Positions 8,201 to 64,000 of a stretch of 64,000 nucleotides of DNA are shown here, one piece after another. Position 1 is the stretch's first letter. Each line of letters starts with the position of its first letter. Origin of the DNA: Tridacna crocea (taxonomy: Eukaryota > Mollusca > Bivalvia > Cardiida > Cardiidae); contig OX031065.1 of the NCBI GenBank assembly GCA_943736015.1, positions 15,157,427 through 15,221,426 of the forward strand, in the 5' to 3' direction. The notes beneath the pieces were generated by a model. That model made no database searches, was not told the DNA's origin, and saw only the letters and a list, made by a program, of their open reading frames with translations. Both the position numbers and the translations under genes were made by a program.

Positions 8201-11200
8201 AATGTATGGCCAGACTCCGACCCGAAAAAGACCCTTACAATAAAAGGACGAAAATGCAAAAGCCCTTTCCCTGGTCAGAATGCGGGAGCACATTGTTAAA
8301 ACTCAAAGTACAAAATAAGGAAGAGAAACGAGACAAAAATAGGTAAAAGGAAAGCATGAATCAAGTAAGGGGACCTTGCAATGAAAGCGAAACACAAGGC
8401 AAACATAGGCAACAGAATATTTAGGAAAGCAACACAATATTTAAGAAATAAATAATGAAGCAGACCCCTAGAATAAGTCCATTGATTGAATGAATGAGCG
8501 GATAGATATATAGAAGAATTAACCGGACAATTATTCAATCAATCGACTAGAAATTGCTGGAGTTAGCGGCAGATAAATAATAATATACAGTATTGTATCG
8601 AGGCAACAGTGGCAAAAAAAACCAGATATGTCACAGCTAGTTGGGCATGGGGCTGAAGAAGTTAAGATAATACATTAACGCTGTGGTGCATAGAGCATAG
8701 AGCTATTACACAAAGAAAAAATTCCAAAATTTTCCAAGGATAGGTATAATAACTAGCAGGAGCCTATGGTTAATAACATTATCTTCCAATATGTTTCGAA
8801 AACCTGAGAATAAGGCTACAACAATACCGTTATTACTCAGGCTTCTAAACCTCTGATAGGTGCATTCATTTGTCTCCATTGAGATACAATGAAATAATTC
8901 AATCCTCAAACTCTCTGTAGAAGGACATTGTAATAAAATGTGTTCACATAACGATACTGAAAAATAATTTTTGCAGTAATGACAGAACTTTGTAAATGAG
9001 TCGCTATAAAATTTAGCTATCATCTTAACACAATTGTTGCAGTGCTTGGCTATCACTGGAGAGGAGATAGACCTACTTAATTCCCATACTTCACAATGGA
9101 GAAGTAATTGTGGTTTTATGTATAAGAAACTTGATAGATGACTGTCGGTCTGAACCCTGGTTATCCAAGTAGTATTTGCTTGTCCGTTGATGACATTACG
9201 AGAAATTCTTTTCCATTGAACTTATGTAGCAAAAAGGCCTGTGGCCAAGTAACGCTGTAAATAATCTTCCAGCGAATACTTGCGTAGAATACGTACAATA
9301 TCTGGGATAAACCCAAGCTTCAAGGAATTGCCACTTATAAAAAAAGAAAAGAGCCTATAATTAAACAACTTTTTACATGTGTGTAAACTCGGGGCACGAC
9401 AAATTTGGCCCAGAAACAAAAGTTTCCTATAATCGATATCAGATTCGATAGGTAAAACACGGCTAGACCGAGACAAACATCGGTTTTAGTATACATCAGT
9501 AAATTCTGAATATACTTGACGCAGAATCTATGTGCTCTTTCCAGCTGAGTTGACTGTGTTTTGTTAATTTCTGACCACAGTTCACAGCCATAGAGTGCTT
9601 TTGGTAGAACAATAGACTTGTACAGTTTAAGGGACGTAAATGGACGAAGACCATTTTCATGCACTCCAACATTTAATAAACCTAAAAGAGTAGATTTCAG
9701 CTTGTGACAGGAATCATCATTGTTGACAGAACTTTTCATGAACTTATTACAAATTATGCCCAAGTGAGTGTAATCCACTACTTCATTTACAACGCTATCG
9801 CCCAATCGCCATAAACGATTAGCGATAAAATGTTTGGGTTCATTAAAGACTATAACTGCACACTTGGATGGGTTATATATTTAACGCCACCTTACAGAAT
9901 AATTAAAACATATATCCATCATCTTCTGCAGACCATATTTAGAGAAGGATACTAAGACCATATCATCGGCTCACTCAGGGAACTACAATCAGCACCTGCA
10001 ATACAAATACCATATCCAGACTTCCCAAGCTGACGGATAAGGCCATCTATGTACACTAAATATAGGAATGGGCTTGTTATCCCCCATTGACGGGTGCCTT
10101 GTAGGACTGGAAAAGAGTCATTAGATGTTGAATTTCTATACTGAACTAAACTATTGAGTCATGTATACAAGTTGCGTAAACACTTCAATGTTTTCAAGTC
10201 AAGACCATAATTGATTAATTTGATTAACTTAAAAAAGACCGTTAACCCATACCCTGCCAAAGGCTTGTTCAACATAGCTAGGTGCTCATAAGATTAATTA
10301 TGTACACCTGTATCATTCCATTATCTCCCGCTAGATGGCATTCTACAGATACACATCTATCTAATTTGGGCATCCTGGGTACAGAGCCAGATATTTATTT
10401 TAGCTCGAAATTCAAAGTAACTGTTGTTGTTGTTTTGAAAAATTACTCCACTTCTGTACCCAGAGTGCCCAAAGTAGATAGATGTGTATTTGTAGAAAGC
10501 CATCTAGCAGGAGACAATTGCACAACAGTATACTAGACATCTCCAGTTTGAAAGCATACATAGATGACATATTAACTTTAGCTCATATGATAGGTTTGCC
10601 TTTCAAGGAATGAATTACTTGAATAAATTGACCTGAAATTGACCCCTTTGTGAAGCATAATTAATGAGTGAATATTTATATCATCGGTTATTATTGGACT
10701 GTACAAAAACTGTGTTAACTCTTTACCTAACGACTAAATTTTAGATTGGTCCAAATTTTAAGCATTTGCAGATGACAATATACACATGACTGAAAGATTA
10801 AAACTTGTTTTGGGAAGGATAGAAAATATTGCATGAAAAGGAGAAAATGCTGGTTACCAGCATTTTCTCATTTTCGTACAATATTTTTAAAAGTCTTCTT
10901 ACTCAGGGTCATTAAAAGTCAGGATTGTGTGGTAAAGAGTTAATGGTAAATGTCTGGTTTGACCGTTACTTTGCCATTGTCAAAATAAAAAGCTTTTGCG
11001 GATGGCATAGGTTAAGATCGGGCTGCACAGAAAGTTCCTCTTGGATATAAGTCACCCGCCAAGTATTACCGATTTTAACCAGCAAAAAATGTTTATTTCA
11101 GGTATTTTTAAGTATTGTTTGGAGACACTATAAATCTGTTAGCTGCATAAAGAATTTAAAAAAACGTGCACAGTTCAGCATGCAAACAACGTAGCCGAAA

Positions 11201-14200
11201 CTAAGTTCTGACAATAATTCAAGCATGTAATATATGGTAATATATTTCATGTCAAATTGTTCGAGTAATACAATTTGTTTTTGTAATTGGTATAACATCT
11301 TTGCTATGTACAATGTATTTACAGGTCAAATGGGTGGGACTTCAGCTCCTTCAGGAGGCATGATCAATACGGGAGGTAACAGTAGTTCGAACTTACTTTA
11401 ACCCATGTCCTGCTAAATAAGTTACTTGTATCCCTTTACCACACAATGCCAACTTTTAACAACCTTGGGAAAGAGTTAGAAAATATTGTGGTAAAAAGAG
11501 AAAATGCTGGTTACCAGCATTTTCTCTTTTTCCTCACAATGTTTTCTACCCAATCAAAGACAAAATGCACCATTTTAGCCACATTAGTACATGTATCATC
11601 ATCTGCAAATGCTTTCAGTTTCGGTAAGGCTAAAATCTGTCTGTAGTAAAACCCCAAACAATGCCATTTCAAACTTATCTATTGGAGAAAAATGTCTGCT
11701 TATCCAACATATCGGTAGTAGATCCAAGATCAGACTGCATAATCTATGCAATTTGAACTTGATTTACACTGTTTGTAAAAGGGCAGTGAAGTGCACTCAG
11801 CAGCCTATGGGTTAATCATCTCATTATTCTCATTTTCCCACAATGTTTTCTACCTTTCAAATGAAAAATGTAATAACTTCAGCATCTTGTCTACCAAATA
11901 TTATTCCTTTAGTCAACTCTGAAATTTTATGGTTAACCTTCTGTCATTATAACCCTTGAGAAGCCAATAAGCATTACTTGTAGCTTTATTCACTTTTCTG
12001 CTTTTTACCTTCACCTGCTTTGCTTTTGTGTTGCTTGGTGACAGGTTCAAGCTCCTGCACAGATAAGATATCAAACTGTGCTGCTTACACCCAGTCTGTG
12101 TGCACAAACCCAGGCTATACCCAGTGGGTCAGTGAGAACTGCCCAAAATTTTGTAACAAGTGTCCATCTGGAAGCTCCTCTGGAACAGTCTACCAGCCTG
12201 CAACATTGGCTCCAGTGATTTCAGGTACTGAATGCTGTTTAAACCGTGTCCACACAATCCCGACTTTTAACAACTTTGAGAAAGAAGTCTTCTGAAAACA
12301 TTGTAGGAAAAGGAGAAAAAGCTGGTAATCAGCATTTTCTCCTTTACCCTTAGTGTTTTCTACCCTTCCCCCAAAAAAATTTCAATTTTTTAGTCACATT
12401 TGTTTTGTCATCTCCAAGTGCTTTCAATTTAGACAAGTCTAAAATTTTGTCGTTTGGTAAAGATTTAATCCATTTCCATACAATTCCGAGTTTTAACAAT
12501 CCTGAGAAAGTCATAGCTGCTGAAAAATTGTGGGAAAAGAAGAAACCAGCAATTTTTTCTTTTCCGACAATGTTTTCTCACTGGTAACAAAGATTTCTCC
12601 TTTTCACGCAGTATTTTTCTATCCTTTGACAGGTAAACCCCATAGTTTGGGCCACATTTAAGTTGTTGTCTGCAGATGTTTTAATTTTGACAATTCCTAA
12701 ATTTTGTAATTTGGTGACAAGTTAGAGCATGACCTCCTGCTTTTCTGTGTCAAATCATTTAGAGCAAAGAAAACAAGTTGCACTGTTCCACAGATGTATT
12801 ATTTACATGTATATCCATTTTCTCTGAAATGAAGCTGTGCTGGATTGCTGTGAAATGTCATTTCCAGATCTCTTAACAGTTGGCTCTCATATAGCTTAAA
12901 ACAAGTTTGCTTTATTTTGCTTTGTGCAATCACACTGTTTAACCCATTATCATACAATACCATTTTTTTCAAACTCTGTGAGGAAAAGAGTTATTGGAAA
13001 CAGTGTGGGAAAAAGGATAAAATACTGATGACCAGCATTTTCTCCAAATGTTTCCTACCCTCTCTTAATACAAATTCCATTTTTTGAGTCACATTTGCAT
13101 TGTTGTACGCAAGTGCTTTTATCTTACAAAATTCTCTAACTTAGCTATCTGGTAAAGAGTATTTTTCATTTTATTTGCTTTGCTTGGTACTAGGTTCAAG
13201 CTCTGGCTCCTGTGCAGATAAGATATCAAACTGTGCTGCTTACACGCAGTCTGTGTGCACAAACTCAGACTATGCCCAATGGGTCAGTGAGAACTGTCCC
13301 AGATATTGCAACAGATGCTCATCCTCGTCAGGTGGTTCAGGTTCACCGACTATTTTCCAGCCTGCTACATACTCTCCAATCAGTCCAGGAGGTAATTTTG
13401 CTTTTGTCATATTGCTTGAATAGCTTTCCTCTCAATGTTTAAACCATTACCAAGTGACAACATTTTAGTCTGGTCCAACTTGTAGATCCAACATTTTACT
13501 CATGTTTTATCGGGGACATAGTAAGCATGGAAGTCAACTGGGAAAAAGCACACGTCGAATGCATGTTTTGATAACAGTTCATGAACAGAGCTTCCTGTAT
13601 CAATGTAGCAGTAGGGAGGCATGACTGTTTTACAAACAGACATCTTATTTTCTATTTAAAGTATGAAAACATTCCAGTTATTGGCATTTTCTCCTTTACC
13701 CACAATGATTTCATACCTTTGATAGAAAAATCCCATCATTTGAGCCACATTTCATTTATAATTGCAAAATCTTTCATTTTCAGAAGTCTAAGATTTTGTT
13801 TTTGTGAAAAGGTTAACCCATTACCACACAATTCCAAGTTTTAACAATCCTGAGAAAGATAGCTTAAGCTTTTGACGACCCTGATAGAAAAGCCTTCAGG
13901 AAATATTGTGGGAAAAGGAGAAAATGCCGGTAACCAGCATTTTCTCCTTTTCCCACAATGTTTTCTACCTTTCAGAAAACAAATTCCAATTTTTCGGTCA
14001 CTTTTATTTTGTTGTCTGCAAATGCTTTCGATTTGGACATGCGTAAAACTTTGTTGTTTGTTAATGAGTTAAATTATTCTTCTTTTTTACAAGTCTATTA
14101 GTCAACCATTGGGTTATTGATGCTTATGTAACTTTTACCCTAAACCGTTCAAGTGCTGAATCTGGCTTTTGTTACTTTTTTCGACAGTGTAGATGATGAT

Positions 14201-20200: not shown

Positions 20201-23200
20201 GTGTTATTAACTATATTCATTCCAATGAAATCAAACCTCTCAACACTTTATTACCCAAAGCCCAAGTTTTGATGATCATTAGGAAGGATCCATTTGAAAC
20301 ATTATGGGAAAAGGAGAAAATGCTGGTAATCATACTCTTTATACTCTATCAAAAGATACTCTTATGAACAAAGTCCATAACACAGAAACAAATGAACAAA
20401 TGCATAGCAGAAATACAGGACCAGGGCAGGGCAAGGCAGGATTTAAACCTAGAATGCCTGAATGAAAGACCAACACCGTAACCACTGAGCTAAAGAGTAT
20501 TCTGTCTAATGCAGTTGTTAGGTATTGTATTTAACCCTTTCCCAAACGATCCCTGGTTTATTCGGGTCAGGAATAGAAGCCTTTTGACAACATTGTCGGA
20601 AAAGGAGAAAATGCTGGTAACCAGCATTTTCTTCTTTTCCCACAATGTTTTCTACCCTGTCATATAGAAAAAAAATCTTTTTAGCAATTGGTAATATGTC
20701 ACCTGCAAAGTGCTTTCAATTTGGTCTAGTCCAAAATTTGCCGTTTGGGAAAGGGTTAAACGGGAATGGAGCAATGCATGAAGGAGTGGTTTCCCGTAAC
20801 AATATACTCGATCCATTGAAGCCACATTTAAATTGTGGTATGCAAAACTTTCAGTTTATACAAGTCTACGGTTTTGTTGTGATGAAAGAATTAATCCTTG
20901 TGGTGACATATAAGTTACCACTGACATTTTTCAATTTGTAGATATTGTAATTTCAGCACTGATTTTATCAAAATGTATATATGGCAATAGACAGGTTTGT
21001 CCATTCCTTTGTCTGTTAATTGTTTACCATACAATTCTGATTTTTAACAACCCTGAGAAAGAAAGAATTAGAAAACATTGTGGGAAAAGGAGAAAATGCT
21101 GGTAACCAGCATTTTTCTCCTTTTCCCACAATGTTTTCTACCCTGTTAAAATCAAATTTCAATTTTTGATTTACAGTAGTGGTCTGCAAATGCTCTCAAT
21201 TTGGACTTGGAAAAAAATTTGTTGTTTGGTAAAGAGTTAACCCATTACCACACAATCCCTACTTTTGACAACCTTGAGAAAGAAGCCTTTAAAAACATTG
21301 TGGGTAAAGGAGAAAATGCTGGCAATCAGCATTTTCTCCTTTTCACACAATGTTTTTTGCCCTTCACAAAACAAATTTCAAATTTTCAGTCACCTTTATT
21401 TTGTTGTCTGCAAATGCTTTCCATTAAGACACACATACAAATTTGTCGTTTGGTAATGAGTTAAACCATATGTCAGATTTTGAAGCAATTTCACAGAAAT
21501 GTTCTTTGAGTGCCCCTTTTGAAAAACTGTTTGCGAAATTTTGATCCATCAAGAAACATGGCTGTGGTGGTGGAGGGCTCTTTGCGCTATATAGACATGA
21601 AAAAAATTCTTTAAAATTCTTCTTCTCTGAAACCACTGTTCAGACTTTGTAATAATTTCACAGAATTTACCCTTTGGTGACCTTTTACTATTCATTAAAA
21701 GACTGTGTAAGTATTTTGATGAAAAAGGCTATTGCAGACCTTAACTTATACCAAATGAGTGCGCTGGTGAGAAATGCCGAAGAATATGCACACTTTCTAC
21801 TTTATGTATTTCATAGCTATGTACTGCAAGCAGTTATCTCATTACCAAACAACAATATTTTAGACCGGTCCAAATCGAAAGCATTTGCAGACGACAAAGT
21901 AAAAGTGACTGAAAATTTGAAATTTGTTTTGTGAAGGGTAGAAAACATTGTGGGAAAAGGAGAAAATGCTGGTTACCAGCATTTTCTCCTTTTCCCACAA
22001 TGTTTTCTACAGGCTTCTTTCTCAGGGGTGTCAAAAGTAGGGATTGTGTGGTAATGGGTTATACAAAACTATTATCTTTTGACCTCTCAAAATTTCAGAT
22101 GAGTGATCCAGGGCCATCTTGGCCCTCTTGATTTGTGAAACTGGGCACTTTTTATTATTAAGCAATTCCAGTGTTAGTAGCTCTTTGGTTCATATAAAAG
22201 CAATTTTGTGCAGTTTTCATCGCAATAAAAGTTGATCTTTTGTACTCTTTCAATTCTTTAACACACAATCCCGAGTTTTAACAACCCTGGGGAAGAAGGT
22301 GTTTGAAAACATTGTGGGAAAAGGAGAAAATGCTGGTAACCAGCATTTTCTCCTTTTCCAACTATGTTATCTACTCTATCACATACAGAAATCGTCTGTT
22401 CAGCTATATTCAATATGTTGTCTGCAAAAGCTTTGAATTTGGTCTAGACCAGAATTTTGTCGTTTGGTAAAGAGTTAAATGGAGTCACAGTATGTCTTCC
22501 AGAAAACAAGAGACTGTTTGATAAAGGATCAGTACATGTTATTTCAGGTTGTATGGATGTCTCGTCCAACTGTGCCATGTTGAATCAGGCCAGCCATATC
22601 TGTACGGATGCTGGAGCCAAGATCTATGCCCAACAGAACTGTGCAAGGACCTGCAACATGTGCTGTATGTATCTGTTGGTTTTCCATTTACAGCAATTAA
22701 CCCATTACCACACAATCCCTACTTTTGACGCCCCTGAGAAAGAAGCCTTTTGAAAACACTGTGGAAAAAGGAGAAAATGCTGGTAACCAGCATTTTCTCC
22801 TTTTCCCACAGTGTTTTCTACCCTTCTCAGAACAAATTTCAATTTTTCAGTCACCGTTATTTTGTCCTCTGCAAATGCTTTCAATTTGAACCAGTCTGAA
22901 ATTTTCTTGTGTGGTAAAGAGTTAACTGTTTACAACACAATGCCGACTTTCAACGACCCATAGGAAGAAGTCCTTTGAAAACATTGTGGGAGAAAGAATC
23001 CTGTTTTTTCATGACCCTGAGAAAGAAGCCTTCTGAAAATATTGTAACCAGCATTTTCACCTTTTCCCGCATTGTTTTCCACTCCCTCAAAGGAAAGTTT
23101 CATCATTTGAGCAACATTGAAATGGTTGTCTGCTAATGCTTTGAATTCAGATGGGTTTAACATTTTGTCGTGTGGTAAAGAGTTAATTGTTTACAAGATT

Positions 23201-26200: not shown

Positions 26201-29200
26201 AATCTTGGAGATTAAGACTAAGAATATACTCAAGAATGGTTGGTGAATACAGGCCAAGGTCAGACAGGCTTACTTGGGTTGAAACTTTCTGCTGGTGGTA
26301 AATTTTTTAACAGTGCAAGAGCCATTCTACCTCATGATTTAACTTATTTTTAGGCAAAATGGATTCTAAGGATGAATAATTATGTAATGACTTGCTTGCT
26401 CTTATGGCTTTGAAGATACGATAAATCCCCATTTGCCAGAGCTTGGCTTCTGCATTGATAATCTAGACAATCTACTGTAACTATTGTGCGTGATATATTT
26501 GAAGGTTGTACTGACAGCCTTTCTAACTGTCAGCTGTACGGCCAAGACATGTGCAACAATGCTAACTATGCTCAGTGGGCACGGGAAAATTGCGCTCGTT
26601 TCTGTAATCTCTGCAGTATGTATATTTTCCTGCTTCCGCAATGTTTTGCTTTTGGTTTTATTTCTCAATGCATATTACTAAGTTTATGGTCATTCAAATT
26701 TGTTAATCCTTTACCCCATAAGGCATGTCTATGGTATCTCTAATTGACCCTAAATAACAGCAAGAATGAAGCCATTTCTTAATGCGTATATGACACCTTT
26801 TGATAGCATAGAAAACATAGTGACAAAAGATGAAACTGCTTGTCACAAGCAATTTCACCTTTTGCTACAATGTTTTCCAAAGGCTTCTACAAGCAATGCA
26901 TAGAAATGGGTATCTATGAAATAAAGGGTTTAGAGCTGTTAATTTATTTCATTCATGTGTATTGAATTTTTTTCAATACAATACATAAACAAACCTTTGA
27001 AGAAAACAGCAATACCTTTGAACAAACCTTTGAAGGAAAACAACATGTACATGTATTTGTTTCTGTATGTTTAGGAAAACATGTTGGGAGGAAAAGTAAA
27101 ACTTGCTTTTTACAGTTTTGAAGTATGGCAGTGTCTTGCATGGTTATCTTGTAACTATCAATTAACTACATAACCTTAAGAAAAGTTATTTTTTCATTGT
27201 CAAACTTTAAAACTTTTGCCATATTCTTAAAGATGAGGCTTTTTTCTTTGGCTATAATTATCTCAATATTTAAAGAATGAGTAGTAGACATTTTTCTTTT
27301 AAGAAAAAAAAAATGGAATATTATTCCTGTATTCTAATTTTTAGATTGCAATAGGCAACGTCAGGCTCTGAAGTCTGCAGAATAGACTTATATCTTTAAC
27401 TATACAGAATGTGCAATCTGATCTTTGATACAAATTTTACAGTTTGCTTTGATAATAATAGCTTGCTTAAACCTTTACCACACAATCTAGACTTTTAGTA
27501 GCCCTGAGGCAGAAAGCTTTTAAAAACATTGTAGGAAAAGGAGAAAATACTCCTTTTCTAACAATGTTTTGAAGGCCCTCAAGGCTGTTAAAACTCAAGA
27601 TTGTTTGGTAAAAGGCTTAGCAAGAAGTAATGATATTTGTGATAGGCACCAGGTCCTTCTCTAGCATGAATTTCACCATCAATAAAATATTTTTTTTCTT
27701 GTTTTGTAGCAAGGGGTTAATACAGCGCCAAATTAAGTGAAATGTCCTGTAAATGCTTTGAGAAATAAAAGAACTAATTTTTATTGAACACATGTCTTGG
27801 CTGAGTGCTTTAAGCTTTTTGTTGGCTTATCCCTATTGTTATTTTATACTTAGCCAACTGATTAAATCTTCAGCATGTCAAAACTGAAGGCATTAATTTT
27901 GTAAACAACAGATTCAATGAGGTTCATATACTAAATTTGTCCCCAACATGTTAAAAAACATTGTGGAGAAAGGAGAAAATGCTGTTTAAATAATGTTTTC
28001 AGAAGCTTTCTTTGTCAGGGTCCTTAACCCTTTCCCAAATGACAAATTTTAGACTGTCCCAAACTCAAAGTGTTTGCTGATGACAATTTTGAATTTGATG
28101 ACAATGGCAGAAAGTTTTCCGATAGGCTTGAAAACACTGTGTGAAAAGGAGAAATTGCTCGTTACGAGCAATTTCTCCTTTTCGCATAGTTTTTTCTATA
28201 GAATTGTACTCCAGACACGTAAAAACCAGAGCTTGTTTGGCAAAGAGTTAAATCTTTGGATTATGTAATAAAAGGTTAATCTTTTACCAAATGACACAAT
28301 TTTAGACTCGTCCAAATTTAAAGCATTTGCGGACTAAACACTAAATGTTACCATAAATACAAAATTTTTCTTTTGAAGAGTAGAAAACACTGTGGATTAA
28401 GGGGAAAATGCTGGATACCAGTATTTTTCTCCTTTCCCCACATTGTTTTGTAAAGTATTTTCCTCGGGGTCCTTAAACGTTGGGATTGTGTGGAAAAGGG
28501 TTAATCCTTTACTAGACAGGACAATTTTAGACTTCGCCAGATTGAAAACATAATTATGTAGACAACAACAAAAAAGCTGTCTCTTTGGATTGTGTCAGAA
28601 TTTGGAAACGTAGACTACACTGTTTCAAAAAGGAAGTGATTGATTGATTTTATGATGATTAACGCCATTTTCAAACAATATTTCAGTTATTTTGCGGCGG
28701 CTGGTGCACCTATCCATGCTTTCCTTGAGTCACTTTAACCCTTTCCCAAACGACAAATTTTGGACCCTTCCAAACCAAAAGTGTTTGCAGACAACAATTT
28801 AAGATTTGGAGAAATGGCAGAAAGTTCTCCAAAAGGGTAGAAAACACGGTGGGAAAAGGAAAAATTGCTCGTTACGAGCAATTTCTCCTTTTCCCACAGT
28901 GTTTTCAAAATACTTTTACTGCAGGGCTTGTTCGGGAAAGGGTTAACCTGTATTCCGAACAAAATCATCAAAGCAATGGTCAGTGGTGAAAGAGAGGAAT
29001 GAATCCTGCCGCATCGACTATCATTAGTGCTCAGAAAAAAATTGGCCGAGCTGGGGATTGAACCAGCAGCCTCCCTTTTCTCAAGTCTTGTATGTTACAG
29101 ACTGAGCTACTTGGATTCTGCATTTCAACAACAGAAAATCCTGGTTTCCAGCATTTTTTCCCCCTCAATTCCTTATAAGGCTGTCCTCCATTGCTTAGTT

Positions 29201-39540: not shown

Positions 39541-39546
39541 TTTATT
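39541..39546 (-). terminator. Possible poly(A) signal AATAAA of the alpha-kinase-like gene
   Basis: AATAAA on the minus strand about 280 bases after the stop codon, inside a decayed copy of the abundant TTAA element (39480-39660). Position is plausible; use is unproven. Confidence 0.3.
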
Positions 39547-39826: not shown

Positions 39827-41197
39827 TTACAAATATGTAACACAGTCGTACTGTGGATCAACATTTTCTTCAGTGTAAGGTGGAGGTAACAGGTATTTCT
39901 CATCGTCATCATCTTCCAAATTGTTTTCTTTTTGACCAGAAGAGGAATTATTGTCATACACATTTCCATTAAATCTTTCCACGCATGTGCAGTATGGTGG
40001 TGGGGGTTTGCTGTAGACGTAACTTCGCATAAACTTCACTAACCACATAAATTGCATTTCAGTTGGTTGGTTATAGTATCTATGATATCCTTGATTTCCA
40101 AATATTTCCACCATATCTCTTGAGTTGAAGATCATTCCTTGGTTTCCATACAGTTGATGAGGCAAGAACTGGTCATCAAGATGAGGGTTTGGGCTAGGAT
40201 TTCTCTGCATTATGGGATAGGATTCATACTGGTACCTCTGTTGAGAACCATCTTCATAACTTATAGTTCCTCTGGCAGGAACCAGACTGTTTCCATTGTA
40301 ATGTCCTGCATTGTCCCTGTCGTATGGAATCTGTTGGTCCGTTTGATATTGATATGTTGATGGTACCTCTCGATAAGTTGGAACTTGGTCAACTTCGTTA
40401 TAAGGTGGTGGCATTGTTAAAGGTGGTGCACTTGGTACCATGTCCCTGTAAGACATGACTCGTTCCCAACCCCTCAATTCAGTACCATCACCTAAACGAG
40501 GCCAACCTTCACATATCCTATTGCACTTATGAAGTCTGAAAAAACCTTTGATTCCCTCATATCCCTGGTCTAAATTTCCATACTTCCGACTTTCAGAATG
40601 AATAACTGGTGATGTAAAGTGATACATGTTACCTGTTTTCACACCCTGTAAATTGGAGACGAGTAGTTTCCCTTCACTTTGACACCAAGTGAAGTGTGAA
40701 AATGCTTCAGGCACCAGAAGTTCACGTAAATGGACAAAGCCGTACTCAAATTGTTCAAAGCGACCTCGTAAGTACAATTCAATGGTGACAAAATCAGAAT
40801 CGTCCATTTTCAGTTTTGGCTTACCAAGAATATCATTGATGCACATACAATCAGACAAAGTATCAATTTGTGCAACTATTGGACAAGTAAATGACAGTCT
40901 GTATTTCAATTTTCTACCAGCAACTACTTGTAATCGGTTGTAGTCATTAGCCATTGTCATAGCAACCTGCGACCTCTGTGACTCAAGCATCCATTCTTTC
41001 TCACTGAGGGTTCCTGTCCTTAAAGTCTTCACAACACATTTTCGACCCCCTAGTGGGCCTTTTCCATTTAACATACCCATGTATGCCAGCTTTCTTGGCC
41101 CCACTTTGAATGGATAGGGATCAAAACTTGCCCAGTATTTGTAGCCATTAGAATCTGGATTGGATGAGAAAGTTTCCACACTGACCTGTTGACCCAT
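39827..41197 (-). CDS. Alpha-kinase-like (probable pseudokinase) with myristoylation-type N terminus and PSAP/PPPY tail
   Basis: Single open frame of 456 residues, much the longest in the window. Residues about 20-235 match the alpha-kinase fold (eEF2K/TRPM7/MHCK type): lysine in VVK (57), AFSHFT (165-170), LQGV (183-186), and the zinc-site H-x-C-N-x-x-C (223-229). The catalytic Asp of the family D-x-Q motif is Asn182 and the Asp of the later DP motif is Ser196, so phosphotransfer is probably lost. The start MGQQVS fits the N-myristoylation consensus. The tail is Pro/Tyr-rich with PSAP (255-258), PPPY (263-266, 399-402, 438-441) and an acidic run (428-433); such motifs bind TSG101 UEV and WW domains. 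Family assignment rests on motifs seen by eye. The function, probably a membrane-linked scaffold, is inference. Confidence 0.75.
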   Translation of the reverse strand: MGQQVSVETFSSNPDSNGYKYWASFDPYPFKVGPRKLAYMGMLNGKGPLGGRKCVVKTLRTGTLSEKEWMLESQRSQVAMTMANDYNRLQVVAGRKLKYRLSFTCPIVAQIDTLSDCMCINDILGKPKLKMDDSDFVTIELYLRGRFEQFEYGFVHLRELLVPEAFSHFTWCQSEGKLLVSNLQGVKTGNMYHFTSPVIHSESRKYGNLDQGYEGIKGFFRLHKCNRICEGWPRLGDGTELRGWERVMSYRDMVPSAPPLTMPPPYNEVDQVPTYREVPSTYQYQTDQQIPYDRDNAGHYNGNSLVPARGTISYEDGSQQRYQYESYPIMQRNPSPNPHLDDQFLPHQLYGNQGMIFNSRDMVEIFGNQGYHRYYNQPTEMQFMWLVKFMRSYVYSKPPPPYCTCVERFNGNVYDNNSSSGQKENNLEDDDDEKYLLPPPYTEENVDPQYDCVTYL

Positions 41198-41251: not shown

Positions 41252-41499
41252 CTGAAAGAAAGCAAAAAGAGAAACAAGATTCGTTAGTCTTTTTCCTGCT
41301 GTTCATTCAAAACAATCCTTTCTTTCTTTTTATCATGCTCATGGAGAAGAGTGTTTTAGAAAACATTCTGGGAAAAGCAGAAAATAATGGCAACCATCAT
41401 TTTCCCCATTTTCTACAATGATTTCAACCCTTGAAAATGTAAATCCTATCATTTGACCTACATTTAATTTCTTGCTGTCAAAATATTCGATGAAAATTA

Positions 41500-58700: not shown

Positions 58701-61700
58701 TGGGTCTTAACTCTTTACCACACAATCCTGACTTTAAACAACCCTTAGAAAGAAGCCCATTGAAAACGTTTTAGGAAAAGAGAAAAATGCTGGAAATCAT
58801 GCTGGAAAATGCTGGTTTCCACCCTATCAAAGTCAGAAATCATTATATTAACAAGATTTACTTTGTTGTCTGAAAATGCTTTGAATTTGGGCCAATCAAA
58901 AAAAAAAAATGTTGTTTGGTAGAGAGTTAACCTGCTTTGCAAATGCTGAATTTCTATCTTTTATTCTTCAGTTTTCAGAAAGCCTCTTTTCTAGCAGTGA
59001 AGAAATGGGAAAAGGCAAAAGAGATTGAGAGGCAGAAGGTTTGTAGAGTTTTCTGTTTAGGAAATGTGATTCCTTACATTATCACTCTTAAGTCTTTAAC
59101 ACGCAATCCCGACTTTTAACGACCCTTTGAAAGAAGCTTTTTGAAAACATTGTGGGAAAAGGAGAAAATGCTGGTAAGCAGTATTTTCTCCTTTTCTCAC
59201 AATGTTTTCTACCCCTCACAAAACAAAATTCAAATTTTGAGTCTCTTTTATTTTGTGGTCTGCAAGTGCTTTCAGTTTTGACCTGTCTTAATTTTTGTCG
59301 CTCGGTGAAGATGTTAGCATTTTTTTTTTTAAAAAACAAATGGAATTCATGGCTCAATTGCCAATGCCCTCATTGGTTCTAACCCTTTACCAAACAGTCC
59401 CTTGTTTTTACAACCCTGAAATAGAAGCCTTTTGAACAAAACATTGTGGGAAAAGGAGAAAATGCTGATAACCAGCATTTTCTCCTTTTCCCACAATGTT
59501 TTCTACCCTGCAGGAAACAGATTTCAAATTTTTGAGTTTCATTTATTTTCAATGTGGACTAGTCCAACATTTTGTCGTTTGAGAAAGAGTGAAAAGGCCT
59601 CTTTCTCAGGGTCATTAAAATTTGAGATTGTTTGGTAAAGGGTTAAACATAGATTTTAAAAGTCCTTTGGAAAATATTAGTTTTCTTTCTTTCAGATTGC
59701 AAGTTCAATTTCACAGATTGAAAGAAAAAGACAGAAAAGTTTGCAGTTACCTATATGTCAGGTTTGTGAACAGCAAGGAGACGAGTTTGTACTGTATCCA
59801 AAAATTGCTGAATTATTTTTTTTCTTCTTTAGTATTAATTCTTTAGGATATGGCTTTTTTTTCTTTTTATGCAACAGTGGACAGTTGAAAACATGGTGGT
59901 AAAAGAAATACATACAGTACCTGTATCATTTTTTTTTTTCAGACTTTGTTTTTACTTGTTTAAAATCTTTTATAATGTTTATTATCTATTACTTGTCTTT
60001 GTAAAATTTTGTGAAAAAAATGGTTATACATTTTACTTGTAATGAAATGCTCATTGCATAGGTTGGTCAAATGGCTAATGTGAGATAAATGAAATAGTAT
60101 TAAAACAGCTGATAAGACCAAAACTTCTGTGGCATTTTATTTCTTTGATAAGTCATCATGACTTTGCAAATCAACAAACAAATAATTTCTTAAATGTACA
60201 TGTATAAATCATGATTATCCCTTTATCTGACAACATAAGATTGGAATGGTCTGAATTGAAAATATTTGCAGACAACAAAGTTTGGCTGAAATAATGGAAT
60301 TCATCTTTAAACAGACAGAAAACATTATAGAAAAAAGAGAAAATGCTAATTACCAGCATTTTCTAATTTCTCTTCAATGTTTCAAAATCCCATCTCATCA
60401 GTGTGCATAATCCATTACCACACAATCCCTACTTTTGACCACCCTGAGAAAGAAGCCTTCAGGAAACATAGTGGGAAAAGGAGAAAATGCTGGTAACTAG
60501 CATTGTCTCCTTTTCCCACAATGTTTTCTATCCTTCACAAAACAAATTTCAACTTTTCAGTCTCATATTTTGTCGTCTGCAAATGCTTTGGATTTGGACA
60601 AACCTGAAATTTTGTTGTTTGGTAATGTGTCAAAATACTGGATTGTTTGGTAAAGTATTTTTCAAAAAGACATACATGTACATATTATTTCATAAATGTA
60701 TACACATATTACATGATGATTCTGGAGATGAACACACAATATTATTTCAGTTTAAGTATATTTCATAATTATTTTGATGAACCTAGATATTATTTCCTGA
60801 ATGTATATATAGTCAGAATGTGTCCCAAGCACTTCCAGTTTATCAGATTTACCGGGAAACAGAGTGAAAGATGGAAATGATCCCAGTATAGTCAGTGACA
60901 AGATAATGGCAGCATATAGCACACTTGGGCTGACAAGAATAGAAAGGGTAAGTACAGGTCAATAGAGAAAGCTGTGTTCGCTCTAGTGCAATTACCTCCT
61001 TTTTAAAAGTACAGATTAGATAATCTTTTAAAAGTGTTAAGCTATTATTTTTTTTGCCACACAATCCCGACTTTTAATGACCCTGAAAAAGAAGCCTTTT
61101 GAAAACAAAGTGGGAAAAGGAGAAAATGCTGGTAACCAGCATTTTCTCCTTTTCGCACTATGTTTTCTACCTTCCCAAACCAAATTTCATTTTTTCAGAC
61201 ACATTTGTTATGTCGTCTGCTTTTAATTTGGGCCGGTCTAAAATTTTCCCGTGTGGTAAGGAGATAAACTGTTAGTGAAAGTAATTTCTGTAGAAAAAGA
61301 CAAAAAACAGACCATAGAAGGGTTGGTGAATACGGGTCTAGATAATGTTAATTGAATTTACCTCACTCAGTGGAGCATTGTCACAACTTGCTGGGTATAA
61401 TATCAGAGCAGTACAATAAACCTGTTCAAGTTTTGCACTATTGTGGGACTTTTCAACTTTGAGATGTAAAAATTGAAAAATAAACAATTGAGCTGTGCCC
61501 TGGAGAAGAAGGGTTTTATGTATCTTTGTGATCCATTGTATCACGTAAGTAATCAGTGTATAAATCCATATGACTAGCAACATGCGAAAAGGGACATTCA
61601 GACATTTGTGTCGATCTGGATCAAGCTGCGCATTCCATGCAGACTTATTTGAGAGGCACTAAATTAGATTTTGTGCTAATGTAGACTTGCGCATTACAGA

Positions 61701-63292: not shown

Positions 63293-64000
63293 GTAAGAGT
63301 TTCTACTTTTTGTATTGTAATGATGAGTACTGAGTTTGATTCTTTTACATACAGTCTAGATTGAGATTAGGCTAAACAAAGGCATGGCTCCTTATCTTGG
63401 ACCAACAGTGTTCTACACATTGCAATCTATTGTACTCAGCCATTCTAGCCAGGACTGTCTTGATTTCGAAATTGTGTGCATTTGATCCATTTATCAGATG
63501 ACACTGTTTACAACTAGTCCAAATTGAAAACAGTTGCAGGTGACAAAATAAATGCAACTGAAAGATTGAAATTTGTTTTTGGAAGGATAGAAAACATTGT
63601 TGAAAAAAGAGAAAAATGCTGGTAACCAGCATTTTCTCCTTTTCCCACAATGTTTTTTTAAAAGGCTTCTTTTGGAGGGGTGTTAAAAAGTAGGGAAGGT
63701 AACATTGGCTGTGAAAAAGTTAAACCACATCTGATAAATCTTCTGGAATAACATGTGCTTAGTCTTCAGGAAATGATTTAATTTAACCCTTTACCAAACG
63801 ACAAAATCTTAGACTGATCCAAATTAAAAGCACTTGCAGATGATAAAATAAATATTACTCAAAAATTGAAATTTGTTTCCAGCAGGGTTTAAAACATTGT
63901 GGGAATAGGAGAAAATGCTGGTTACCAGCATTTTCTCCTTTTCCCACAATGTTTTCAACAGGCTTTTATCTCAGGGTCGTAAAAACCAGGGATTGTTTGG

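Follow-up and report, generated by a model that had tools for sequence, protein, structure and literature searches.

Relation to known adaptors and pseudokinases

ARRDC1 carries PPxY motifs for NEDD4-type ligases and is not known to have a myristoylation-type start. Its C-terminal PSAP motif is bound by the UEV domain of TSG101 at the plasma membrane (PMC9105457). In the Tribbles proteins (TRIB1–3), a dead kinase domain serves as a substrate platform and a conserved C-terminal tail with the motifs HPW[F/L] and DQxVP[D/E] recruits an E3 ligase (PMC5382568). The gene described here lies in a 64,000-nucleotide stretch of the Tridacna crocea genome (the window; positions 15,157,427 to 15,221,426 of contig OX031065.1, assembly GCA_943736015.1). 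It encodes a 456-residue protein that combines a myristoylation-type start, an alpha-kinase domain changed at both catalytic-site Asp, and a tail with PSAP and PPxY motifs. We favor, with moderate confidence, a reading of this protein as a cellular membrane adaptor derived from a catalytically dead alpha-kinase.

The window protein resembles ARRDC1 in its PSAP/PPxY tail, but where ARRDC1 has an arrestin fold, residues 1–250 of the window protein are predicted to fold as an alpha-kinase. Unlike it, Tribbles has a conventional kinase fold, and the excerpt of PMC5382568 reports no PSAP/PPxY tail; each of the two Tribbles motifs is found in 0/29 members of the window family, which comprises the window protein and P0001–P0028. 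The logic of myristate, P(T/S)AP and PPxY is shared with retroviral Gag and viral matrix proteins (PMC8402826), but the window protein is of cellular kinase ancestry, and a Pfam search reported up to E 1 gives no capsid or matrix domain for it. "Gag-like" is an analogy only.

Among alpha-kinases, human ALPK3 has been called a pseudokinase and its alpha-kinase domain is reported to lack catalysis; its departures are at G1725, K1729, Q1769 and N1797, and D1774, the predicted catalytic Asp, is still there (PMC9698156). Another group reports it to be active and to bind the protein-turnover factors SQSTM1 and MuRF2 (PMC11358020). Compared by description of its residues, ALPK3 keeps D1774, whereas the window family is changed at both Asp in 29/29 members; no PSAP/PPxY tail is reported for ALPK3 in the excerpts of these two papers. 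The nearest intact relatives are vwkA-like/MHCK-like alpha-kinases (P0030–P0066 and others), which have the same domain and often an MGxxxSHE start. They differ in their intact D-x-Q-G and T-D-P motifs, in their length (complete ones mostly ~270–300 residues) and in having no late-motif tail.

No paper joining alpha-kinase with PPXY was found in the literature searched, which lies outside most subscription journals; a search for alpha-kinase with TSG101 gave papers that appear off topic, and one for alpha-protein kinase with bivalves gave none. The literature on pseudokinases with NEDD4-type ligases includes a paper on TRIB3 and WWP1. Late-motif adaptors and pseudokinase adaptors are already known, and an alpha-kinase fold with such a tail is undescribed in that literature.

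The kinase domain lacks both catalytic-site aspartates

The open reading frame is a single coding exon on the minus strand; a plus-strand reading of the same frame contains many stops. The sequence elements listed in an initial annotation of this DNA (the MGQQVS start, Asn182, Ser196, PSAP and three PPPY) are all present, with coordinates rechecked. Its assignment of an alpha-kinase domain is borne out by two agreeing results: a Pfam Alpha_kinase match to residues 43–229 (E 3e-28, 99.6 bits, cut-off 21.3), which is the only match of the protein at E up to 1, and the predicted fold of residues 1–250, which is that of an alpha-kinase. The elements of this part, in window coordinates, are as follows.

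39827..41197, minus strand: open reading frame of the putative alpha-kinase-fold pseudokinase with late-motif tail, 456 residues, stop codon included (reading frame and Pfam)
40511..41071, minus strand: alpha-kinase domain, residues 43–229 (Pfam; fold match over about residues 4–244)
41027..41029, minus strand: Lys57, ATP-lysine position (kept in 29/29, alignment)
40694..40696, minus strand: His168, zinc-ligand position (kept in 29/29)
40652..40654, minus strand: Asn182 (NLQG; Asn in 29/29), replacing the catalytic Asp of the D-x-Q-G motif (D756 in MHCK A)
40610..40612, minus strand: Ser196 (TSP), replacing the Asp of T-D-P (MHCK A D766; Gly in 26/29, Ser in 3/29)
40511..40531, minus strand: His223, Cys225 and Cys229, zinc-ligand positions (kept in 29/29)

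In a profile alignment, Asn182 falls at the D-x-Q-G Asp, and residue 196 at the T-D-P Asp, where the MHCK A structure 3lmi has Ala. Structures 3lmi and 4zs4 are titled as the inactive D766A and D756A mutants of MHCK A, both ATP-bound. None of the 29 window-family members found retains either Asp. Other aligned alpha-kinases (the sister family described below and P0029 excluded) have Asp at position 182 in 76/76 cases and at 196 in 74/74 covered. Lys57, Glu140 and Gln184, which we take to have ATP-binding roles, and His168, His223, Cys225 and Cys229, presumably the zinc site, are unchanged throughout the 29 aligned members. Because these positions are kept while Asn, Gly or Ser occupies 182 and 196, both catalytic-site Asp were lost selectively from an otherwise preserved fold, and the domain is probably catalytically inactive.

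A regular-expression scan also gave catalytic-site labels such as LLQA, HTKG and VTKG. These are mis-hits: in alignment A3, which comprises 115 of 149 proteins, the rows concerned have D-x-Q (N-x-Q in P0029).

The tail carries conserved late motifs

The region that follows the kinase domain contains the elements listed below.

40424..40435, minus strand: PSAP, residues 255–258, late motif of TSG101 UEV type (28/29 members have P[ST]AP)
40400..40411, minus strand: PPPY, residues 263–266, WW-ligand type (motif reading)
40016..40069, minus strand: partly conserved stretch of MQLMWIVKQMSYA type, residues 377–394, preceding the second PPPY (low-confidence helix model)
39992..40003, minus strand: PPPY, residues 399–402 (motif reading)
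39887..39904, minus strand: DEKYLL, residues 432–437, acidic-dileucine-type [DE]xxxL[LI], abutting the last PPPY (type in 22/29)
39875..39886, minus strand: PPPY, residues 438–441 (motif reading)
39830..39838, minus strand: C-terminal TYL, class I PDZ-ligand type (28/29)

PPxY is present in all 29 members, in at least three copies in 26 of them. P[ST]AP is missing only from P0027 (Potamilus), which has PSAH, and is followed by a PPxY within 20 residues in 27/29. Two further features go beyond the initial annotation: the TYL C-terminus, absent only from P0026, whose sequence ends early, and a [DE]xxxL[LI] motif immediately upstream of a PPxY in 22 members. In composition-preserving shuffles of the window protein's tail, 0/1000 reach one P[ST]AP and three PPxY; tested member by member, 0/1000 shuffles reach both observed counts in 28/29. 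The 21 motif columns have a mean majority frequency of 0.94, as against 0.75 for columns of the kinase domain and 0.27 for the 186 tail columns outside the motifs, and 0/100000 permutations reach the motif-column value, a comparison made on 27 rows (P0026 and P0028 excluded) and flattered by the fact that the motif columns were picked after viewing the alignment. The tail is long, fast-changing and probably unstructured. Residues 377–394 stand out in this otherwise variable region.

A sister family has the same build

Few alpha-kinases turned up in an exon-by-exon search of the 1.05-Gb assembly (31 contigs, the window lying within G000:C10). Besides the window gene, they are an intact paralogue (L002/L013) at C10:55.40 Mb, an eEF2K-like alpha-kinase of two exons on C1, and a second gene of apparently dead type at C10:24.48 Mb. 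This sister gene, not seen in the initial annotation, has the same build as the window gene. The claim that no alpha-kinase with this set of features had been described agrees with the literature searched, but the set is not unique to the window gene, since the sister family shares the architecture. The sister gene has three exons with in-phase GT–AG borders, from which a 295-residue protein is predicted. It begins with MGLFDF and ends in a tail with PSAP, PPSY and a terminal PPPYGS; in between, Arg occupies the lysine position, and the first and second Asp are replaced by Gly and Asn, respectively.

A protein search with the sister protein and the intact paralogue as queries gave 137 matches, 120 of them listed; all counts for the sister family and for intact relatives are among the matches listed. 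The sister family consists of the T. crocea copy and at least ten proteins. Both Asp are absent from 11/11 of these, PPxY is present in 11/11 and P[ST]AP in 6/11. Residue 184 is Lys in 8/10, and residue 57 is Arg in 2/8 covered and also in the T. crocea copy.

Taken together, members of the two dead families have PPxY in 40/40 cases and P[ST]AP in 34/40, compared to 1/97 and 0/97 of the proteins with both Asp. The latter are a class defined by regular expression among 111 proteins outside the two dead families; 70/97 have at least 260 residues, and the 27 shorter ones could be fragments concealing a tail. In all 111, PPxY occurs in P0041 alone and P[ST]AP in none. The Fisher value for the association of tail motifs with Asp loss, 6e-34, is overstated, since relatives are not independent and the association is perhaps a single event on the tree.

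The myristoylation-type start is shared with intact kinases

41180..41197, minus strand: MGQQVS, N-myristoylation-type start, residues 1–6 (PS00008-like pattern)

The window protein starts with MGQQVSVE, and Gly2 is found in 28/28 family rows that cover position 2. Orthologues keeping both Asp and lacking Gly2, PSAP and PPPY would speak against the initial annotation; the family is the opposite, with Asn182 and PPxY each in 29/29, P[ST]AP in 28/29 and Gly2 in every covering row. A PS00008-like pattern, used in what we take to be its form, is matched by 27/29 members, and the remaining two have a different predicted start. The N-terminus of the window family is probably myristoylated and would hold the protein at a membrane.

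The same pattern is found in 30/97 relatives with both Asp, and in the intact T. crocea paralogue an upstream exon starts with MGIEQSHE and ends at a GT. As intact paralogues without late motifs share the myristoylation-type start, membrane anchoring is probably ancestral. The Gag-like set proposed in the initial annotation therefore stands in part: Gly2, P[ST]AP and PPxY are strongly conserved, but Gly2 is not a newly acquired member, and the tail alone accompanies the loss of catalysis.

An MG start is likewise found in P0069, P0077, P0101, P0103 and P0106, which are intact vwkA-like alpha-kinases from sources that include Montipora and Convolutriloba (which we take to be a coral and an acoel). 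They perhaps represent an uncharacterized membrane-type alpha-kinase family.

Distribution and origin

Named matches of the window family are all bivalves (Mercenaria, Ruditapes, Mactra, Dreissena, Mya, Potamilus and Sinanodonta), a range that reflects the scope of the protein search, which requires shared 5-residue words and similar length. Phylogenetic trees were computed from rows selected out of the 149 proteins and three of this genome. In a 69-row tree with catalytic columns kept, the two dead families form one clade with support of 100/97; in a 50-row tree with three catalytic columns masked, the support is 99/95. Placed alone (51 and 42 rows), the two dead families take up an identical, unresolved position, which lies outside a clade of 22 intact kinases that includes the bivalve and coral ones. 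Both dead-family stems are long, and the tree program warned of long branches meeting. Independent origin of the two families is disfavored by the joint trees, though the approximately unbiased test rejects no alternative to a single clade (p 0.089 and 0.093). A single origin is likely.

The three T. crocea genes (window-family, sister-family and intact) are all located on C10. The Mercenaria proteins P0002 (window family), P0032 (intact) and P0051 (sister) come from contigs of equal length (91,270,759), as do the window-family and intact proteins of Mya and of Dreissena, whereas the contigs of the corresponding proteins differ in Mactra, Potamilus, Ruditapes and Sinanodonta. The shared location on C10 and the equally long contigs elsewhere, although equal size is no proof of one contig, fit an old duplication along one chromosome. 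A bolder and rather unlikely scenario begins with a myristoylated alpha-kinase in an ancestor of the bivalves with dead families, a group we presume to be the heteroconchs. This kinase would have become a vesicle-budding or cargo-sorting engine by losing catalysis and gaining a tail for docking TSG101, NEDD4, AP and PDZ proteins, probably once, and would then have given rise to two paralogous families.

P0029 (189 residues) is a distant alpha-kinase on a very long branch (3.51). Its two catalytic Asp positions are occupied by Asn and His, in that order (CNIQG, THP); it has neither P[ST]AP nor PPxY, and it perhaps represents a third, separate loss of catalysis.

Proposed function and alternatives

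The adaptor reading is based directly on the fold prediction, the residue losses, the conservation of the motifs and the sister family; from these we infer myristoylation, inactivity, tail disorder, all binding partners, the cargo and the outcome. An N-terminal myristate would keep the protein at the membrane. The alpha-kinase fold retains its zinc site and part of the nucleotide pocket; with both catalytic-site Asp missing, its probable task is to bind a partner or cargo rather than to phosphorylate it, perhaps under nucleotide control. In the tail, P[ST]AP would recruit TSG101 and the PPxY motifs (up to four) would recruit NEDD4-family ligases with avidity. Less surely, [DE]xxxLL may recruit clathrin adaptors and TYL-COOH a PDZ scaffold. 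Bound cargo would then be handed to NEDD4-type ligases and ESCRT-I (endosomal sorting complex required for transport I) for ubiquitination and ESCRT sorting or budding, in a manner similar to ARRDC1. Candidate partners are encoded in the genome: there is one UEV exon, and WW exons lie near HECT exons in four places (C10:57.95–57.97, C14:45.88–45.90, C1:34.89–34.92 and C11:35.41–35.45 Mb). The ESCRT/NEDD4 adaptor on a dead kinase suggested in the initial annotation is the best reading of the sequence, as a predicted role.

Several observations weigh against it. Strict P[ST]AP is absent from 5/11 sister-family members. For 6/11 members of that family the observed counts are reached by between 1 and 96 of 1000 shuffles, for the other 5/11 by 0/1000. 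The myristoylation pattern is found in 0/11, with several starts uncertain. Within the window family, P0027 from Potamilus has PSAH and a single PPxY, and 125/1000 tail shuffles do equally well. By these counts the predicted TSG101 arm is under less constraint than the PPxY arm, and short motifs are no proof of binding. The window family, furthermore, still has Lys57 and Gln184, which leaves room for nucleotide binding or residual activity, and the dispute over ALPK3 (PMC9698156 versus PMC11358020) is a warning on inactivity calls.

The membrane-type start of the intact T. crocea paralogue, MGIEQSHE, could point to a different role, in which the pseudokinase would be a membrane-bound regulatory partner or competitor of that kinase, its PPxY/PSAP tail mainly governing turnover of the complex. 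The location of all three genes on C10, and the equally long contigs for three of them in Mercenaria and two of the three in Mya and Dreissena, are in line with such a pairing, but the contigs differ in the four other genera, and the conserved motif set exceeds the needs of a degron. We consider this improbable, if worth keeping in mind. The TYL C-terminus (28/29) could instead point to a signaling scaffold at cell contacts, with PPxY serving WW proteins outside the ubiquitin/ESCRT systems (e.g. YAP-type co-activators) and P[ST]AP being secondary. P[ST]AP is indeed absent from P0027 and from 5/11 sister members, and several genomic WW exons have no adjoining HECT exons. However, P[ST]AP in 28/29 with PPxY no more than 20 residues later in 27/29 is a late-domain arrangement, and the remaining tail columns vary freely; a scaffold of this kind seems quite improbable.

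Retention of Lys57, Glu140, Gln184 and the zinc-ligand positions in 29/29, along with the disputed activity of ALPK3, might speak for a kinase that is active through another acidic residue or an altered mechanism. This is very unlikely: both Asp are gone in 29/29 window-family and 11/11 sister-family proteins found, the first Asp is kept by 76/76 others, and MHCK A structures with a single change at either position are titled inactive. The sister family, moreover, has Lys at residue 184 in 8/10 and Arg at residue 57 in 2/8 covered and in the T. crocea copy. Finally, a viral structural gene that was captured, or a Gag-like protein that forms particles, would share the late-domain set of myristoyl-type start, P[ST]AP and PPxY (PMC8402826). 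The ordered part, however, is an alpha-kinase that groups with animal vwkA-like alpha-kinases, Gly2 is common to intact kinases, and Alpha_kinase is the sole Pfam match at E up to 1. Viral origin is rejected on these grounds, and we give it hardly any credence. The initial annotation had likewise seen no sign of it, in agreement with the bivalve identity of the named relatives, the grouping of the domain and a possible splice acceptor in the 5' untranslated region.

Flanking signals and other features of the window

41252..41253, minus strand: candidate splice acceptor (CTTTCTTTCAG/G), 54 nucleotides upstream of the ATG (sequence reading)
39541..39546, minus strand: AATAAA polyadenylation-type signal, 280 nucleotides downstream of the stop (sequence reading)

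The former makes an intron in the 5' untranslated region, upstream of the window-gene ATG, possible. Elsewhere in the window there are two ShK-domain exons, at 11984–12292 (plus strand, Pfam 2.6e-9) and 22448–22750 (plus strand, Pfam 1.2e-5), perhaps of a single gene and perhaps of two adjacent genes. Reading frames of 171 and 181 residues at 8709–9880 (minus strand) look by eye like remnants of a retrotransposon reverse transcriptase and have no Pfam match at E<=0.1. A KTLWEKEKMLVTSIFSFSHNVF-like peptide string occurs at many sites, e.g. at 28735–29094 (minus strand), 60472–60768 (plus strand) and 63372–63719 (minus strand) of the window and also in L010 and L013; it is apparently a dispersed repeat of the T. 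crocea genome.

Implications

Two paralogous families in which both Asp are lost and late motifs are present, next to intact relatives that are tail-less, would make a clean natural record of the passage from enzyme to adaptor. If the adaptor reading is true, ESCRT/NEDD4 adaptors can arise on folds besides arrestin. In the bolder scenario above, should these proteins bud vesicles unaided, they would constitute a cellular module for Gag-like budding that originated from a kinase. The finding may also have a bearing on membrane traffic in bivalves.
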